Assembly: GCF_014647495.1 (NCBI RefSeq)
Contig: NZ_BMPH01000007.1
Location: 1 to 64,000 of the forward strand
Length of the DNA stretch: 64,000 bases
Direction of reading: 5' to 3'
DNA from: Glutamicibacter protophormiae
Lineage (GTDB): Bacteria > Actinomycetota > Actinomycetes > Actinomycetales > Micrococcaceae
Each line of letters opens with the position of its first letter. Position 1 is the stretch's first letter. Under the pieces are notes generated by a model, which did no database searches, was not told where the DNA came from, and worked only from the letters and a program-made list of their open reading frames with translations. Both the position numbers and the translations under genes were made by a program. Shown here in pieces: positions 4,900 through 39,407 of this stretch.

Positions 4900-5940
4900 A
4901 TGAACGCACAACCTGCGGCAGCGCTGAAGGATGCCCGGGGCCGGCCGCTGCACGACCTGCGGATCTCGGTCACCGACCGCTGCAACTTCCGCTGCGTGTA
5001 CTGCATGCCCAAGGAGATCTTCGGCCGGGACTTCGTCTTCCGCGAGCGCTCCGAGCTGCTCAGCTTCGAGGAGATCGAACGCCTGGCCCGCGTCGCGGTG
5101 TCCCTGGGTGTGCACAAGCTGCGGCTGACCGGCGGGGAGCCGCTGCTGCGCCGCGGCATCGTCGACCTGGTGGGCATGCTGTCCCAGCTGAAAACCGCCG
5201 ACGGGAAGCCGGTGGACCTGGCGATGACCACCAATGGCTCGGCGCTGCCGGTGATGGCCCAGCAGCTGAAGGACGCCGGGCTGCGCCGCGTGACCATCTC
5301 GCTGGACTCGCTGGACGATGCGCGCTTCAAGGCGATCAACGATGTGAACTTCCCGGTCTCCCGGGTGCTGCAGGCCATCGACGCGGCCGAGCAGGCCGGA
5401 CTGGGCCCGGTCAAGGTCAATACCGTGCTCAAGCGCGGGGTCAACGACGACGAGATCCTCACGCTGGCCGAGCACTTCCGCGGCACCGGGCAGATCCTGC
5501 GCTTCATCGAGTTCATGGACGTGGGCACCACCAACGGCTGGAAGCTGGATGCGGTGGTCCCCTCCAGCGAGGTCGTCTCCCGCATCAACGAACGCTGGGC
5601 GCTGGAACCGGTGGTCAAGACGGAGCCCGGGGAAACCGCGAACCGCTGGCGCTACGCCGACGGAGCCGGGGAGATCGGCGTGATCTCCAGTGTCACCAAC
5701 GCGTTCTGCGGGAACTGCTCGCGCGCCCGGGTCTCCGCAGAGGGACAACTGTACACCTGCCTGTTCGCCGGCTCCGGGTTCGACCTGCGGGCGCTGCTGC
5801 GCGGCGGGGCCGACGACGAGGAACTGGCCCGGGCGCTGACCGGACGTTGGCGGAAGCGCGACGACAACTACTCGGAGCTGCGCGCCGCGCTCACCCCGGG
5901 CAACCGCAAACGCATCGAGATGTCCTATATCGGCGGGTAG
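4900..5940 (+). CDS. moaA: GTP 3',8-cyclase MoaA
   Basis: This radical-SAM enzyme starts Moco synthesis by rearranging GTP to 3',8-cyclo-7,8-dihydro-GTP. At 346 residues it is full length. The SAM cluster cysteines are C28, C32 and C35 (CNFRCVYC), LTGGEPLLR follows at 76-84, and the second cluster is bound by C270, C273 and C287. The protein ends in Gly-Gly, as MoaA must for activation. It is divergent from the modA operon; its partner moaC lies at 13.5 kb, beyond the accessory insert. Confidence 0.95.
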
Positions 5941-8661: not shown

Positions 8662-9706
8662 CTATTCGCCTGCCAGATCTCTTTCGACCTCCAACGCGGC
8701 CGCAATCGCTTCAGGAGACGGCAAAGTCGTTTTCTCCTCCTGAGGCAACGCATCATACGTGTAGGAAGAAACCGCTAGCGGCTGTGTCGAACCATCCAAG
8801 GCATACCGTACAGTCCGATCATTCTTGGACCCACAAACTAAGATCCCCACCGTGGGAGCCTGACGGGGAAGCCTCAACATGTCATTGACCGCAGCGACAT
8901 AGAAATTCAACTGCCCCAGATGCTCAGGTTTGAACTTCCCAGCCTTCAGCTCAACGACGACATAACGGTCCGATGGCACGTGATACAACAACAGATCAAC
9001 ATAAAAATCATCGCCATCGACATCGAGATGGTATTGCCTACCGACGAACGCGAAACCAGCACCAAATTCGGCTAAGGTCTGCGACAAACGAAGCGTCATG
9101 GCTTCTTCAATCGCATGCTCTTGTGCCTCTTCTGTGAGCCCCAAGAAATCAAAGATCAGGGGATCTTTGGCCAGCTCCTTCGCCAAGTCGCTGCCCTGGC
9201 TGGGTAAACGAGATTCTAGATTGTTGGGAGCCGCGCCTTCGCGTGTATGTAACCGAGTACGAATTTGGTGCTCAAGAACCGCCACGGACCAACCATGCTG
9301 AACAGCACGGTGCGCATACCACTGACGCAATTCACGGTCACTAATCTTATTCAGAAGCGCCACGTTGTGAGTCCAGCTCAATTGTCCAGTTACCGACTGG
9401 ACAATTGAATCCTCAACACCCCACGCTTCGGCAAACGCCCGCATGTTGTAGAGATTCGTTCTCGAGAACCCCTTCATATGAGGGAACTCAACTCGCAGAT
9501 CCCGCGCGATACTGTCGAATACCTTACTCCCCCAAGGCTGACCAGCCTGACGATCAAGAAATGATTCGCCCGATATTCCAATACAGTTCGACCATGGCCG
9601 TGTTGACCATCCGCTGCGCCCGATGCTGGGCCTCGTGGATCAGCTCTTTCAAGGTCAATAAAGCATCAGAATAGTCAGCAGGAAGATCGCGTTCGATTTG
9701 GGACAT
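8662..9706 (-). pseudogene. YhcG/DUF1016-type PDDEXK nuclease, frameshifted
   Basis: Two adjoining frames together give a normal-length (about 347 residue) YhcG-type protein. The N-terminal part starts at ATG 9706 (MSQIERDLPADYSDALL) and runs into the WNIGRII helix, then meets a stop just after Ser. Deleting one T (A on the plus strand, in the AAGAAA run near 9556-9561) restores SDRQAGQPWG and joins directly to the second frame. The C-terminal part (to 8662) contains the PDDEXK nuclease core with DDFYVDLLLYH and VVVELKAGKF. The family is linked to DNA processing and restriction-like functions. A single-base indel could also be an assembly error. Lower GC than the Moco genes supports recent gain. 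Confidence 0.8.
9371..9407. promoter_or_regulatory. GTCCAG-N7-CTGGAC inverted repeat inside the nuclease gene
   Basis: A perfect inverted repeat with 12-base arms spans 9379-9407. Its core is GTCCAG-N7-CTGGAC (9384-9402), and a further GTCCAG half-site lies at 9371. The same core with the same seven-base spacing recurs at 9747-9765 upstream of the gene. The recurrence suggests a protein-binding site rather than chance coding sequence. Confidence 0.5.
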
Positions 9707-34419: not shown

Positions 34420-34818
34420 ATGACTGACTCCCAGCGCCTGCCCGGCGACACCTACGACGCCGGCATGGTGGTGCGCCGCGAAGTGCTCGGCGGCGAGCAC
34501 GTCGACCGCGCCACCAGCACCTCGAACGACTTCACCGACGAGTTCCAGGAGATGATCACCCGCTACGCTTGGGGCACCATCTGGACCCGCGACGGCCTGC
34601 CGCGCACCACCCGCAGCGCCATCACCCTGACCGCCATGATCGCCGGCGGCTACTGGGAAGAACTGGAAATGCACGTGCACGCGGCCCTGCGCAACGGCAT
34701 GACCCCTGATGAAATCAAGGAAGTTTTCCTCCAGAGCGCCATCTACTGCTCGGTGCCCGCGGCCAACGTCGCGTTCAAGATCGGCAAGAAAGTTTTGGCC
34801 GAGTACGAGGCCTCCTAG
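34420..34818 (+). CDS. pcaC: 4-carboxymuconolactone decarboxylase
   Basis: 132-residue AhpD-fold enzyme that decarboxylates 4-carboxymuconolactone to the enol-lactone. Conserved ITLTAMIAGGYWEELEMHVHAAL and QSAIYCSVPAANVAFK are present. It is 15 bases after pcaD and the last gene of pobA-pcaHGBDC. A decayed IS481 transposase begins a few bases after its stop codon, so any native terminator has been displaced. Confidence 0.92.
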   Translation: MTDSQRLPGDTYDAGMVVRREVLGGEHVDRATSTSNDFTDEFQEMITRYAWGTIWTRDGLPRTTRSAITLTAMIAGGYWEELEMHVHAALRNGMTPDEIKEVFLQSAIYCSVPAANVAFKIGKKVLAEYEAS

Positions 34819-34819
34819 C

Positions 34820-35150
34820 TGTGTTGCCTAGGTTGAGAACACTGTCGGTCGGTACTCGGGCCTTCAGCGAAGCTTGCCCTCGACGGTAGTTCTCATAACC
34901 TAGCCACCCCTGCAAAGCAGCAACCGGCTCAGCCACCGCGCGGTACCGGATCGCGTACGCCCACTGCTCCAGCATCGTCCGGTTGAACCGCTGCACCTTG
35001 CTCTTGGTCTGCGGCCGGCACAGACGCGAATGCCGATGCTTCTTCGCTGGCCCCCGCGTCCGTGAATGCGTGGGGCCGGCGGAACAGCCCGTTGTCGTTC
35101 GGCACCCAGCGCACCTTTAACTTTGGCGCTATTACACCTGGCATTCGAAC
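34820..35150 (-). pseudogene. IS481-family transposase remnant
   Basis: Minus-strand translation gives the C-terminal half of an IS481 transposase (rve-type, DDE) in two frames. VPNDNGLFRRPHAFTD is in one frame; CRPQTKSKVQRFNRTMLEQW, then AYAIRYRAVAEP and GWLGYENYRRGQASL, are in another, with the shift near 35045-35060. The N-terminal DNA-binding domain and most of the catalytic core are gone. The outer end begins about two bases after the pcaC stop, at TGTGTTGCCTAGGTTGAGAA, which resembles an IS end. It marks the left edge of the accessory cassette that follows. Confidence 0.75.
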
Positions 35151-35784: not shown

Positions 35785-36249
35785 ATGAGTCAAGCTCGAA
35801 AGACGACGCCATCGGCCAATCCGATCAAGCGTCGCACCCTGGCTGCGGCACTCTGTGGCGCCCTGCTGTTTGCGCCAGTTACCGGAGCCGCTAGCGCCAT
35901 TGCCCAGCCCTCAATCTCGTCCGTCCAAACTGTCGCATCGTCGGCGAGCACCGTATCGTCCGGATCCATTGCTGCGGATAGCGGCACGCGCAGCGTCGCC
36001 TCCCCGGATCTCGGAACAGCTTCGGCCTCCGACGCGCAGAAGAGAATCAGCATCAAGCCAGTCATTGACTGGATCAAGAAAAATGCTCCTCAAATCTGGA
36101 ACAGCATGAAGTCCGCCGTCAAAAAAGGATGGAACGCGTTTAAGAAATGGTGGAATAGCCTCGCTTCGTGGATCCGCTGGGGAATCGACTTCGTTGCCTC
36201 GGGTGGCCTCTGGGAGCTCTTCGACGCTCTCTGGCACTACTTCTTCTAG
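35785..36249 (+). CDS. Sec-exported precursor with Trp/Lys-rich C-terminus, candidate bacteriocin
   Basis: I recognise no named family. The 154-residue product has an n-region with KRR (15-17), a hydrophobic core and a likely signal cleavage at ASA-38 or AIA-40. A Ser/Ala/Thr-rich spacer follows (about 41-85), then Lys-Arg at 86-87 and a 67-residue tail. That tail holds nine Trp, eight Lys and one Arg against four acids, in amphipathic helical runs (IKKNAPQIWNSMKSAVKKGW, AFKKWWNSLASWIRWG), and ends in a hydrophobic LWHYFF. This resembles membrane-active peptides of the aureocin A53 kind in composition, but with a signal and pro-region. AAGGA precedes ATG 35785; the frame upstream is not coding. 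Membrane protease and ABC genes follow. Confidence 0.7.
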   Translation: MSQARKTTPSANPIKRRTLAAALCGALLFAPVTGAASAIAQPSISSVQTVASSASTVSSGSIAADSGTRSVASPDLGTASASDAQKRISIKPVIDWIKKNAPQIWNSMKSAVKKGWNAFKKWWNSLASWIRWGIDFVASGGLWELFDALWHYFF

Positions 36250-36257
36250 CATCTAGC

Positions 36258-36286
36258 GGGTCGCCCGCGAGCAACGCGGGCGACCC
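36258..36286 (+). terminator. Hairpin after the peptide gene
   Basis: GGGTCGCCCGC and GCGGGCGACCC form a perfect 11-base stem with a seven-base loop, nine bases after the peptide stop codon. There is no T-tract, so partial termination or mRNA 3'-end protection is more likely than a full stop. This would give much peptide mRNA and less of the downstream genes. Confidence 0.6.
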
Positions 36287-36304
36287 TGTAGAACCCAATT
36301 CGAA

Positions 36305-36982
36305 ATGACAAGACTTCTTGCATATGTGGCCATCAGCGCCATGCTAACTCTCGCTAGCCTGGCGCTAGCATGGGATCACCTCGTGGCGAGCGAATGGTTT
36401 GGCGCGCTCGTTATGGCAACCGCGGCCACGGCCGCCTACCTGATCTGCCACAACCCTGAAAAATATCCAGAAGCCGGAAGCCCGTCTACCGGAAAATTCA
36501 TAGGCGTGGTCGCCGTCCTATTCGCCTTGATCGCGGGAGTCGCCCAGTGGACGTCTCCCGCAGTGCTCATCGGGCTGGCCCTCGCCTCATGTGCCGAAGA
36601 GCTTGCCTTCAGGTACTTTCCCTGGAGGATGCGCAAGCATCTTCGTCCACGCCATCGATGGATGATCCCAGCTGCCGCGACTGTTGGATTCTGCCTAGCC
36701 CACCCGATCAGCAACCCCTGGCTAGTTGCTGATCGAGCATTGTTTTCCTTGGCGGCATTCGCCATATGTGCGCTGACTGGCTCATGGATTGCCTCTGCAG
36801 CCACTCACTTGATCGCCAATCTCATGGTTATATCCCTTTCGGAAACAGCCAGCGAGTTGTTGGTAGGTCCCGTGATTCTCGGCATGGATATTGCGCTGGT
36901 CCTTGCGGTCAGCTGGCTACTGCTCCTTGGTAACGCAAAGCGACCTTCATTGACTTCCTTTGTAGATCGGATTACGATCTAG
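36305..36982 (+). CDS. CPBP-family intramembrane metalloprotease
   Basis: 225 residues with about six to eight membrane segments. All three CPBP (Abi/CAAX-protease-like) motifs are intact: E98-E99 and R103 in EELAFRYF, F129-H133 in FCLAH, and H168-N172 in HLIAN. Such proteins act as membrane proteases; next to bacteriocin genes they serve in maturation or self-immunity. It follows the peptide gene by 55 bases, after the hairpin, and its stop codon lies inside the inverted repeat upstream of padR. Confidence 0.8.
   Translation: MTRLLAYVAISAMLTLASLALAWDHLVASEWFGALVMATAATAAYLICHNPEKYPEAGSPSTGKFIGVVAVLFALIAGVAQWTSPAVLIGLALASCAEELAFRYFPWRMRKHLRPRHRWMIPAAATVGFCLAHPISNPWLVADRALFSLAAFAICALTGSWIASAATHLIANLMVISLSETASELLVGPVILGMDIALVLAVSWLLLLGNAKRPSLTSFVDRITI
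36963..36981. promoter_or_regulatory. Probable PadR operator
   Basis: TAGATCG-GATTA-CGATCTA is a perfect seven-base inverted repeat with a five-base spacer. It covers the end of the protease gene and lies four bases before the padR start. The position fits autoregulation of the padR-ABC part by PadR. Confidence 0.55.
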
Positions 36983-36984
36983 TT

Positions 36985-37329
36985 ATGAATCAAGCGGAGA
37001 AATGGCCCAGCGGGTGGCTCAAGGCTTCCTTGACGCTATGTGTGCTGAGGACCATCCATCGCCACAGCGGAACGTACGGGCATGAAGTTATCGGATTGTT
37101 GGCGGGCTACGGCCTCGGGAATGTTGGCGGAGGTACCCTGTATCCGCTCCTCCGACGCCTCGTCGACGACGAATTGGTCGAGACTGAATGGGTAGAAGGG
37201 GAGCACGGCCCAAGCCGCAAGACATATCGAATCACCGCCGCCGGCCTTGTTGCTCTGAAAACGGAGACCAAAATGTGGCGTGAGTTCACTGCGGTCACCA
37301 ATCAATTACTAGACGAAGAGAAGCACTGA
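36985..37329 (+). CDS. PadR-family transcriptional regulator
   Basis: 114 residues, the small single-domain PadR type. The winged helix contains YGHEVIGLLAGYGLGNVGGGTLYPLLRRLVDDELVETEW, of which GTLYPLLRRL is the family hallmark. No strong ribosome site precedes ATG 36985, only two bases after the protease stop, so translation is probably coupled. PadR proteins often repress neighbouring ABC transporters and are released by membrane-active compounds, which fits this locus. Confidence 0.88.
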   Translation: MNQAEKWPSGWLKASLTLCVLRTIHRHSGTYGHEVIGLLAGYGLGNVGGGTLYPLLRRLVDDELVETEWVEGEHGPSRKTYRITAAGLVALKTETKMWREFTAVTNQLLDEEKH

Positions 37330-37330
37330 C

Positions 37331-37720
37331 ATGATGAACGACGAATACTTCAAGAACCTGGCCTATCAGCTTCGCTGGCGCCGCATGCCGGAGTCCGTCG
37401 TCGCACAAACCCTCCGGGAAGTCCGCGCGGAATCCGAGGCGGCTCAAAGCACCCCATTGGAACTTTTCGGTCCGGAGAAAAGTTTCGCCGAAACGTTCAC
37501 CAAGGGGAAAGCCACATCGAAGGGTTTTTGGATCATCACCGTTGCTGTTGCCGTCGCCGTACTAGTGGTCCTCGGCCGGGTGGTTACCTCGTTTGCCACA
37601 GCCGGGGAGTCCAACCCGCTGATCAGCGTTCTGACCCTCGTCGGCGCGCTGGCCATAGCTTTCATCGGCTCGATCATTGGCGCAATGGTAGATCATCGAA
37701 TCCCAAAGGGCGTTGAATAA
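37331..37720 (+). CDS. Small HAAS-like membrane protein
   Basis: 129 residues. A soluble helical N-terminus (about 1-60: YFKNLAYQLRWRRMPESVV, LREVRAESEA, PLELFGPEKSFAETF) looks like the HAAS/DUF1700 domain often found beside PadR genes. Two membrane segments follow (about 67-90 and 97-120). Its start is one base after the padR stop codon. The PadR-HAAS-ABC order is a known actinobacterial and firmicute arrangement; here it is likely a sensor or partner of the ABC system. Confidence 0.65.
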   Translation: MMNDEYFKNLAYQLRWRRMPESVVAQTLREVRAESEAAQSTPLELFGPEKSFAETFTKGKATSKGFWIITVAVAVAVLVVLGRVVTSFATAGESNPLISVLTLVGALAIAFIGSIIGAMVDHRIPKGVE

Positions 37721-37722
37721 GC

Positions 37723-38634
37723 ATGCATATCCAAGTTTCTTCGGTATCCAAGCATTACGGGAAGGCGCATATCCTCAAGGAGATATCGTGCTCGATACCT
37801 GCAGGACAAATCACCGGCCTTTTGGGCCCTAACGGTTCCGGAAAATCTACGCTGATGCGAATGGTGCTGGGTCTGGGCACCCCCGATTCAGGCTCCATTC
37901 TTTACGACGGGGTCAGGTATTCCGACCTGCCGAACCCGGGAGCGGCAGTCGGTTCGCTGCTGGACGCAGCCGCTCGGCATCCAGGACGAAATGTTCGCGA
38001 CAGCTTCAGCCTTGCAGCAGGCATGCTCGGGATCAGCAACAGCCGCCGCGACGAAGTTATTGAGCAAATGGGATTGGAATCTGTTGCCAAACGACGATTC
38101 AAGTCCCTCTCTCTCGGGATGCGCCAGCGCGTCGGGCTTGGAATTGCAATCCTGGGGCGTCCTCGGTGCCTGATCCTGGATGAGCCCGTCAACGGGCTGG
38201 ACATCGAAGCCATCAGCTGGCTGCGCGGCTTGTTGACAGGGTTCGCCCAGGACGGGGGAAGCGTTTTGGTTTCCAGCCATCTCCTGCAGGAGCTGCAATC
38301 CTACGCTCATCGCGTGGTCATCATCGACCGCGGCAGCGTCGCGACGGAATCCACGCTGTCGGATCTCAGCAACCCGGATTCACAAGTCAGCGTCGAAGCC
38401 GACGAGCCGGAGAAACTCGCCAAGTTGCTGCTGGCTCATGGATTTGCCGTCTCGGACCATGCCGTCCCTGGTTGGCTCAAGGTCCAGGCCAGCAATCGAC
38501 AGGTGGCGCAGATTGCCATGGAGCACAGAATACTGATCACCTCGCTGGGATCGCAACAGGAGCACCAGCTGGAGGAAGCCTACCTGCGCCTTACACAGGG
38601 TGAATACAGTGTTCACCGGACGGAAGTACTTTGA
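37723..38634 (+). CDS. ABC transporter ATP-binding protein
   Basis: 303 residues, of the exporter/immunity class. Walker A GPNGSGKST at 35-43, signature LSLGMRQRVG, Walker B CLILDEPVNGLD and switch SSHLLQEL are intact. A C-terminal extension of about 80 residues carries a DrrA/CcmA-type domain. It starts two bases after the HAAS-like gene and overlaps the permease region. With the permease it probably removes or excludes the peptide from the membrane (inference). Confidence 0.88.
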   Translation: MHIQVSSVSKHYGKAHILKEISCSIPAGQITGLLGPNGSGKSTLMRMVLGLGTPDSGSILYDGVRYSDLPNPGAAVGSLLDAAARHPGRNVRDSFSLAAGMLGISNSRRDEVIEQMGLESVAKRRFKSLSLGMRQRVGLGIAILGRPRCLILDEPVNGLDIEAISWLRGLLTGFAQDGGSVLVSSHLLQELQSYAHRVVIIDRGSVATESTLSDLSNPDSQVSVEADEPEKLAKLLLAHGFAVSDHAVPGWLKVQASNRQVAQIAMEHRILITSLGSQQEHQLEEAYLRLTQGEYSVHRTEVL

Positions 38635-38636
38635 CT

Positions 38637-39407
38637 ATGAAAACCATTGATACACCAGAACGGCAACCGCTTGTTGGATCCCGGCCCACACTGGGCCGCT
38701 TGGTGGGGCTGGAATTTCGGAAACTGACAACGGTTCGTTCCGGGCAGTCAGTGCTGTGGAGCATGCTTGGGCTTGGGCTCTTGCTGTCCTTCGGAGTGTG
38801 CTGGGTGCTAATTGCCCAGGAGGAAGCCGAGCTGTCCTTCTCAGTCATCATGATGGCGTTTACCGTATGTGCTGCCTTGGGAACCCCAATTCTTGGAATT
38901 CTGGTCTATACGATGGATTGGCAGCATCGGGACATACTGATGATTCTGGCGTTGGAACCACGTCGCCACCGTGTTTTCCTGGCGAAACTGGTGACCTCCG
39001 TGCTCATCGGCGTCGCTCTTTGCGCGGCGTTCATCGCGACCGGCCTGGCAGTTAGTTTCGGGCTGGCCAGCGCCTTTGGGATGGCCTGGACTGCCCAAGG
39101 TTCGCTGGAGGTCCTCGGCATGCTAATTGTGTTGTCGTTTGCCGGTTCGCTGAGCGGTGCGGCATTGGGCTCCGCGTTGCTGTCGACGCCGCTTTCGGTG
39201 GTGATAGTGATCATCCAAGTGCTGCTCATCGACAATCTGCTGTTGTTGCTGCCCGGTGGCATCGGACCTTTCCTGCAAACCGCCTCGATGTCCAATTCCT
39301 TGATCGGCGACGGAAGTATAGGCACTGCGTTGTCCTCATTTGCCCTATGGGTTCTCCTGCCGTTTGCGGTGGGATTCATCCGCATGCGGCGCGCCGAACC
39401 GCATTAG
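38637..39407 (+). CDS. ABC-2-type permease
   Basis: 256 residues with six hydrophobic segments; an N-terminal cytoplasmic LVGLEFRKLTTVRSG lead is typical of ABC-2 permeases. ATG 38637 has GGAAG ten bases before it; a TTG at 38631 would overlap the ATPase stop. Last gene of the cassette. No terminator could be recognised in the 130 bases that follow. Confidence 0.82.
   Translation: MKTIDTPERQPLVGSRPTLGRLVGLEFRKLTTVRSGQSVLWSMLGLGLLLSFGVCWVLIAQEEAELSFSVIMMAFTVCAALGTPILGILVYTMDWQHRDILMILALEPRRHRVFLAKLVTSVLIGVALCAAFIATGLAVSFGLASAFGMAWTAQGSLEVLGMLIVLSFAGSLSGAALGSALLSTPLSVVIVIIQVLLIDNLLLLLPGGIGPFLQTASMSNSLIGDGSIGTALSSFALWVLLPFAVGFIRMRRAEPH

Follow-up and report, generated by a model that had tools for sequence, protein, structure and literature searches.

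A cassette of six genes in a soil actinobacterium, Glutamicibacter protophormiae, probably encodes a bacteriocin that is secreted, activated by a protease and active on membranes, together with linked protection of the producer. Here 'the window' refers to the whole stretch of 64,000 nucleotides that was analysed. An ORF check of the window found six ORFs at 35785-39407, all on the same strand (+), with the precursor as the initial annotation had described it in place and composition. The features are the following.

35785..36249, + strand: gene of the 154-aa precursor, with a signal peptide at about 1-40, a pro-region rich in Ser, Ala and Thr at about 41-87 and the tail at 88-154
36046..36246, + strand: 67-aa tail immediately following K86-R87, conserved, cationic, amphipathic and rich in Trp, presumed to be the mature peptide (family alignments, dN/dS)
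36258..36286, + strand: intercistronic hairpin, 12 perfect bp, no T run, just 3' of the precursor stop (folding)
36305..36982, + strand: CPBP (Rce1-like) membrane protein (PF02517 and EExxxR, FxxxH and HxxxN motifs)
36985..37329, + strand: PadR-family regulator (Pfam PF03551, 1.8e-15)
37331..37720, + strand: HAAS-like protein, likely PadR partner, two hydrophobic segments (segment count; L035 homologue near the PF22564 cut-off)
37723..38634, + strand: ABC transporter ATPase (Pfam PF00005, ABC_tran, 3.7e-29)
38631..39407, + strand: ABC-2-like permease with six hydrophobic segments (segment count; own-profile matches)

The tight spacing reported initially holds between most of these genes, which lie 1-2 nt apart or overlap by 4 nt, but not after the peptide gene, where the gap is 55 nt.

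The precursor ATG is preceded by AAAGGA, and residues 19-35 form a hydrophobic segment followed by AxA sites. The tail contains 9 Trp, 8 Lys, 1 Arg, 3 Asp and 1 Glu (net charge +5), and it is more amphipathic than shuffled versions of itself by 5.4 sd. No family was matched by the precursor in Pfam or NCBIfam, or by the tail in Pfam, NCBIfam or PDB, which bears out the proposal that the tail lies outside known families. When PDB sequences were searched with family profiles, the best match (0.036) was a designed repeat protein, and no bacteriocin was among the matches. Weak PHROGs matches, the best of them (0.0056) to a tape-measure family, were taken as amphipathic-helix noise.

Profile searches did find relatives of the tail, as scattered actinobacterial members. 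The peptide family is sparse: within the window's family 15 of 395 genomes have a relative, and relatives also occur in 6 of 200 Streptomyces-like genomes (G545, G759 and others, so called from genome size and class) and in seven Microbacteriaceae genomes (pooled from two profile searches; G1045, G803 and G1000 were placed there by membership in the family of a Curtobacterium genome). L025/L044 (G167) was counted as a match without cassette. The dropped rows include the weak matches L005-L008 and two false matches, L049 with a long tape-measure-like frame and L054 with stops and no secreted ORF. Viral contigs and plasmids yielded no relatives, and no description of the family was recognised in the literature searched, which left out supplements and most subscription papers.

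Members share the layout of signal, pro-region and tail. Of 26 ORFs, 25 have a hydrophobic segment at the N terminus, and tails measure 58-70 aa. Net charge is +2 to +12 in all 21 tails compared, Trp number 2-11, and 20 of the 21 are without Cys. These statistics include L059, whose precursor meets an in-frame stop right behind its signal part, and leave out the broken peptides of L027/L045 and L038, a second, partial copy in L011 and four Streptomyces-like peptides; tail starts were placed by hand from alignments. One tail column is invariant over 12 rows and none over 19 rows. In three comparisons, dN/dS was 0.06-0.23 for the tail versus 0.28-0.58 for the signal and pro-region, so constraint is stronger on the tail than on the pro-region and changes at QKR. 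The Lys-Arg reported at 86-87 is present in the window precursor but is not universal: QKR marks the Micrococcaceae type-I clades, most others have a single Arg, L030 has Gly and L040 has Lys.

The locus is more than chance because the gene set recurs beside relatives, the tail is conserved and its amphipathicity exceeds that of shuffles. Peptide genes are broken in three relatives, as would be expected if the peptide gene were a decaying or spurious ORF among neighbours collected by chance. Such an origin is nevertheless extremely improbable, for cassettes recur in several genera and the tail is constrained, and for the family it is already contradicted.

Most peptide relatives are adjoined by cassette genes, most commonly by the ABC pair. 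The absence of the cassette beside homologues, which the initial annotation had named as a refutation, was thus looked for in the relatives and not found overall. The ABC pair lies next to the peptide gene in 7 of the 15 matches of the window's family and in all seven Microbacteriaceae genomes, the pair of G003 being judged from a 98.8% DNA match. HAAS-PadR without the ABC pair stands beside 6 of the 15. PadR recurs in L035 and six type-II loci, and some loci have a HAAS-like gene without PadR. On the other hand, some peptide loci are without any protection gene, which counts against a bacteriocin with self-protection, as does a test of peptide-transporter co-divergence that gave no support.

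The best NCBIfam model for the ATPase is TIGR03740 (lantibiotic protection ABC), but its 176.3 bits fall below the cut-off of 309.75, and membership was rejected. The permease matched nothing in Pfam or NCBIfam. Of 245 family genomes searched with its own profile, 6 gave matches of E<1e-95, and all of these permeases adjoin a peptide gene or remnant. Of 17 more distant permease loci, 10 were checked upstream and showed no such peptide ORF; the other seven, L090 among them, lay outside this check.

The window CPBP matches PF02517 (1.7e-7; 31.8 bits against a cut-off of 22.4) and carries EELAFR, FCLAH and HLIAN. The EExxxR, FxxxH and HxxxN motifs are present in all five cassette CPBPs examined, as had been stated for the window protein. 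However, a profile search of peptide loci confined CPBP to the window and L035-L038, none being found at the Microbacteriaceae loci. Therefore CPBP is not a general partner and not an obligatory processing protease, as had been one suggestion.

The HAAS-like protein of the window has no Pfam match; when five cassette homologues were scanned with PF22564 (HAAS), that of L035 reached 26.9 bits against a cut-off of 27 (6.4e-6); of the other four, two matched weakly (0.001 and 0.015) and two not at all. One form of PadR operator is ATGT-N8-ACAT, for which the window gave 0 matches versus 0.27 expected. PadR with a two-TM protein fits the published HAAS-PadR membrane-stress dyad, which is described as a membrane-signal sensor (PMC11237479). 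Conceivably, the peptide is a signal or self-stress ligand that is sensed via HAAS-PadR and sets the expression of membrane-protection genes, killing being incidental. In the six type-II loci, HAAS-PadR is the only conserved partner found and no dedicated immunity gene was seen. We consider this unlikely, since tails of 58-70 aa, cationic and mostly Trp-rich, are large for a pheromone, since the seven Microbacteriaceae genomes have the ABC pair with no PadR found, and since the hairpin after the peptide gene suits a product made in bulk.

The window hairpin, with its 12 bp in the 55-nt gap, folds at -33 kcal/mol (z -6.1). Of 15 operons folded, 10 have a strong hairpin (z -2.7 or below) behind the peptide stop, L058a being left out as its stretch after the peptide contains N. 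Such a hairpin 3' of the peptide stop suggests an excess of peptide mRNA. A promoter and terminator scan gave one promoter-like and three terminator-like sites, not above shuffles, the latter three on the minus strand.

The cassette is an insertion, polymorphic among Glutamicibacter. A congener has 35 bp at the cassette site, and at five of 15 other Glutamicibacter sites with both flanks the gaps are 0.6-1.3 kb by coordinates, too short for the cassette. At three loci a peptide gene broken by an in-frame stop (G215, G1000) or reduced to a fragment (G182) lies beside an open ABC pair, which we count in favour of the bacteriocin interpretation given initially.

Alternatively, the peptide could be a component of the producer's own cell envelope, for instance a surface-active or membrane-bending protein, exported or processed by the ABC pair or CPBP. 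CPBP proteins can process rather than immunise, as is argued for SilX. Yet the precursor carries its own export signal, CPBP occurs in few loci, peptide genes are broken beside open transporter genes, and presence is sporadic (the 15 of 395 genomes) with insertion polymorphism, all of which makes an envelope role very improbable.

For the bacteriocin we propose the following course. The first gene would yield a Sec-exported pre-pro-protein, from which signal peptidase would take off about 40 residues. An extracytoplasmic protease would then cleave the product at the site that is basic in most members (QKR in the window's clade) or close to it, freeing the 67-residue cationic Trp-rich peptide, predicted to be helical. 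The freed peptide, a putative antimicrobial, may insert into and permeabilise the membranes of nearby Gram-positive competitors. The hairpin could let peptide mRNA exceed that of the remaining genes. Meanwhile, the ABC ATPase and permease would clear peptide from the producer's membrane once it has partitioned there, and self-immunity may be added by the CPBP protein. HAAS-PadR would sense membrane disturbance and relieve PadR repression, so that protection follows peptide pressure.

Helices that are cationic and rich in Trp lack specificity for bacterial membranes, and the tail could act as a secreted membrane-active toxin against eukaryotes such as amoebae, nematodes or fungi rather than bacteria. 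However, the peptide gene is linked to genes for bacterial self-protection, which implies bacterial membranes as a target, and a toxin aimed at eukaryotes is quite unlikely.

More broadly, though tentatively, the family may represent an unrecognised class of membrane peptides in Actinomycetota that are rich in Trp and Lys, exported by Sec and masked by a pro-region, and whose cassettes, with ABC pairs that can be interchanged, are traded. HAAS-PadR instead of a two-component system might read the membrane damage of the own peptide, and peptide and pump genes might reassort between lineages. A 2024 mining study calls Actinomycetota under-explored for bacteriocins; its MGnify screen was limited to proteins under 100 residues and would have passed over these precursors, while its nr search may have lacked this limit (PMC11580447). 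The family offers defined, synthesizable candidates of 58-70 residues from several genera, the loci with broken peptide and open pump are natural material for immunity tests, and it becomes testable whether the HAAS-PadR sensor is linked to a secreted peptide.

Among known systems, aureocin A53 and lacticin Q are likewise small cationic Trp-containing helical peptides with ABC machinery nearby. Their fold is a compact saposin-like bundle of three or four helices. They are, however, leaderless and about 50-53 aa long, whereas here a 154-aa precursor has a signal segment. A lacticin Q-type identity was rejected, as none of the peptide loci in 13 genomes was matched by PF11758 (sub-cut-off matches appeared in 5 of 14 control genomes) and hhalign profile comparison gave 3% probability. 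The single PF11758 match in the 13 genomes is a true lacticin Q relative on another contig of G799, a Curtobacterium genome of the family; it lies beside an ABC ATPase homologue and is counted in favour of the bacteriocin. Circular bacteriocins, which are closed head to tail, have a similar mature size and ABC immunity (PMC10598978), but a signal peptide is found here. This identity was also rejected; with E up to 1 allowed, PF09221 gave matches in 4 of 13 genomes, never at peptide loci, and its sole over-cut-off match is on another contig of G225.

Of the partners, PadR next to a HAAS-like two-TM protein recalls HAAS-PadR systems, which are tied to PspC/Toastrack/Lia parts, in contrast to a secreted peptide here (PMC11237479). 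The Rce1-like protein, whose motifs are intact and whose neighbour is a bacteriocin-like gene, resembles CPBP/CAAX proteins of bacteriocin loci such as SilX.

The initial annotation knew no described family combining a Sec signal, a long pro-region and such a tail, but the architecture of Sec signal, long pro-region and active C-terminal part is known. The precursor family has the signal peptide, pro-region and C-terminal peptide unit of the Sec-exported, protease-activated kind, with no closticin-named family among its Pfam and NCBIfam matches. PAMP of Propionibacterium jensenii, per the passages available, is a 198-aa pro-protein with a 27-aa signal peptide, and extracellular proteolysis yields its active C-terminal fragment of 6383 Da; compared by description alone, it shares actinomycetotal origin, signal peptide and C-terminal fragment, but those passages mention no CPBP/HAAS-PadR/ABC cassette (PMC5756557). 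Closticin 574 has a general signal peptide, a long pro-part and an 82-aa C-terminal peptide freed after secretion (PMC10888436). It and closticin-like peptides, likened by description alone, have the same general architecture but come from Clostridium. By analogy, the bacteriocin logic here would be akin to that of PAMP and closticin 574; the general Sec/pro-region architecture was already described, and what is new is the tail family and its cassette.

ORF calls and a Pfam scan recovered the six co-directional genes at 35785–39407 as initially annotated: a peptide precursor (PEP), CPBP, PadR, a HAAS-like two-TM protein, an ABC ATPase and an ABC permease, with intergenic gaps of 55, 2, 1 and 2 nt and then a 4-nt overlap. 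The claim that the precursor tail has no known family also held, as Pfam and NCBIfam scans of 12 tails gave nothing above noise.

With the precursor alone as query, 58 genomes yielded clear relatives in G027 and G010 (two copies) besides a near-identical copy, and four further weak matches. The sole near-identical peptide copy found is in genome G003, 98.8% identical with the window across a 6.17-kb stretch around the cassette. A tail profile built from four rows had hits in 15 of the 395 genomes searched in the window's family, and a pattern search of named genomes picked up G. soli, four Curtobacterium and Galactobacter caseinivorans. In the Curtobacterium family, a nine-row profile hit 5 of 349 genomes, including a false hit (G814); in the class it hit 4 of 394, namely the window, G545 and G759 plus one false hit. 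With a 19-row profile, hits came from 6 of 200 genomes in the Streptomyces-like family; across the phylum, the only hit among 198 genomes was the window. From these counts, the peptide family is real but sparse.

Tandem copy in G010
L011, 11682–11879, minus strand: second, partial peptide copy near the contig end

Precursors share a hydrophobic N-terminal segment (25 of 26 ORFs), a small-residue spacer and a cationic tail; in the exception, L059, an in-frame stop follows the hydrophobic segment.

Tail types
Type I: window, G336, G243, G225, Curtobacterium and others; cores like WWN-LASWIR
Type II: G010, G027, G118, G007, G092, G065; ends like ALYDALLW or VFEVIRW
Type III: two proteins, in G267 and G167, without a cassette gene nearby; that of G267 begins with a twin-arginine-like signal

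The tail is preceded by QKR in the Micrococcaceae type-I clades, by DR or GR in most type I of Microbacteriaceae, by Arg in five of six type II (Lys in L040) and by G in L030. Because these residues vary, the Lys-Arg initially noted before the tail generalizes to a basic site that is usual, not absolute. A weak fold model points to helicity only.

dN/dS is lower in the tail than before it in all three comparisons: 0.06 and 0.28 (L035 and L036), 0.23 and 0.58 (window and L035), and 0.12 and 0.47 (L037 and L036), rough values given synonymous distances of at least 1.4 in these comparisons. From this contrast we read the tail as the constrained unit of the precursor. For whole precursors of close pairs, dN/dS is 0.18 (L041/L042) and 0.99 (L031/L032, with few changes).

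Among the 15 family genomes, the ABC pair adjoins the peptide in seven (G000, G003, G336, G243, G225, G215 and G182; G003 was scored from its DNA match to the window), HAAS-PadR without the ABC pair in six, and neither in two. The ABC pair is present in all seven Microbacteriaceae genomes (four Curtobacterium, G1045, G803 and G1000), twice in G803, each time with a different peptide. The expectation of the same gene set elsewhere was thus borne out in that partners recur beside most relatives, but the order varies and two of the 15 have neither ABC pair nor HAAS-PadR.

Gene orders
Window: PEP-CPBP-PadR-HAAS-ABC-ABC
L035: PEP-CPBP-ABC-ABC-PadR-HAAS
L036–L038: PEP-CPBP-ABC-ABC-HAAS
Curtobacterium: PEP-ABC-ABC

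Successive peptide-ATPase-permease cassettes in one genome (identity: permeases 58%, ATPases 52%, tails 27%)
L058, 6277–8603: first cassette
L058, 11204–13378: second cassette

In the reverse search, a permease profile matched 23 of 245 family genomes. The window's permease type goes with the peptide, because the six permeases with E below 1e-95 all adjoin it or its remnant (next E, 3e-33) and, of the other 17 loci, the 10 checked (11 fetched) have no such peptide ORF upstream. Distances between tails and between permeases are uncorrelated, which counts against tight pairing; we read this as cassette reassortment, and a broad-specificity transporter also fits.

In three genomes the peptide is broken beside open transporter genes. 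In G215 the tail is interrupted by an in-frame stop, with CPBP, ATPase, permease and HAAS-like frames open; G182 retains only a short peptide fragment, next to an ABC pair and a HAAS-like gene that are open; G1000 has a stop after the signal part, with an open ABC pair. Compared with those of the intact G225 locus, the G215 and G182 transporter genes (ATPase and permease) give dN/dS of 0.23–0.32. These few cases look like immune non-producers.

Being the commonest partner and open where the peptide is broken, the ABC pair may serve self-protection; PMC10598978 describes ABC immunity for saposin-like enterocins. CPBP, with motifs intact in all five loci where it was found (window and L035–L038), was not found in L045. 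It had been proposed as protease or immunity factor; we favor added immunity over processing, because CPBP was not found beside Microbacteriaceae peptide genes. HAAS-PadR may act as a membrane sensor. Small proteins at four loci, the first two beside Streptomyces-like peptides, are possible immunity candidates.

Small proteins
L112, 5393–5689: 98 aa, directly after the peptide gene, two or three hydrophobic segments
L114, 5701–5979: 92 aa, likewise
L031: 94 aa, after the permease
L033: 82 aa, after the permease

Directly 3′ of the window's peptide stop lies a perfect, GC-rich 12-bp stem. Perfect stems of at least 11 bp occur within 90 nt after the stop at 9 of 25 loci, against 0–1.6% of 90-nt placements across those loci. 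A co-directional downstream gene is present at 16 loci, of which 15 were folded (L058a contains N); z is −2.7 or lower in ten (window, L030, L031, L032, L033, L035, L036, L056, L057 and L058b), and five have no strong hairpin (L037, L038, L059, L112 and L114; z −1.6 to +1.4). The structure recurs though sequences differ. Some type-II stems probably serve as ordinary terminators for convergent gene pairs. The operon hairpin is most simply read as a partial terminator or 3′ stabilizer that would raise peptide mRNA over downstream mRNA. In lantibiotic operons, peptide mRNA exceeds downstream mRNA in this way.

Of 18 genomes of the genus, 17, among them the window's own, were found to have both cassette-flanking genes. 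The site is variable and the cassette an insertion there, because the flanks lie 35 bp apart in G009 and the cassette is absent at all nine further flank-matched sites inspected by eye, which hold short gaps or unrelated genes. G+C is 0.57–0.61 over 34–40 kb and mostly 0.62–0.74 in 2-kb steps elsewhere, with other dips at 8–10 kb (0.55) and 44–46 kb (0.61).

Window ORFs
34775–34996, minus strand: short ORF upstream of the cassette, no Pfam match; presumably the end of an IS481-type transposase
8662–9477, minus strand: ORF inside the 8–10 kb dip, putatively a DUF1016-type nuclease protein

Should the IS481 label hold, the cassette has an insertion-sequence remnant at its border.

As for known bacteriocin kinds, neither PF11758 (aureocin A53/lacticin Q type) nor PF09221 (circular bacteriocins) matches any peptide locus in 13 genomes. 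Both match elsewhere; in Curtobacterium genome G799, which also carries a member of the new family, PF11758 finds a lacticin Q relative (2e-20) with an ABC ATPase homologue adjacent.

Matches to known families
L115 (G799), 5736–5894, plus strand: 53-aa leaderless bacteriocin, adjoined by a divergent ABC ATPase and a permease-like gene
G225, contig C51, 62714–62887: PF09221 above cut-off (25.6 bits), on another contig than the peptide cassette

The peptide family is genuine and recurrent and, as far as our Pfam, NCBIfam and literature searches reach, undescribed, and gene logic argues strongly for a putative bacteriocin. The precursor is similar in kind to PAMP and closticin 574, both described as secreted proteins with a C-terminal part that turns active on proteolysis. 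The kind of system is already known; novelty, as far as seen, lies in the peptide family and in its link with HAAS-PadR.
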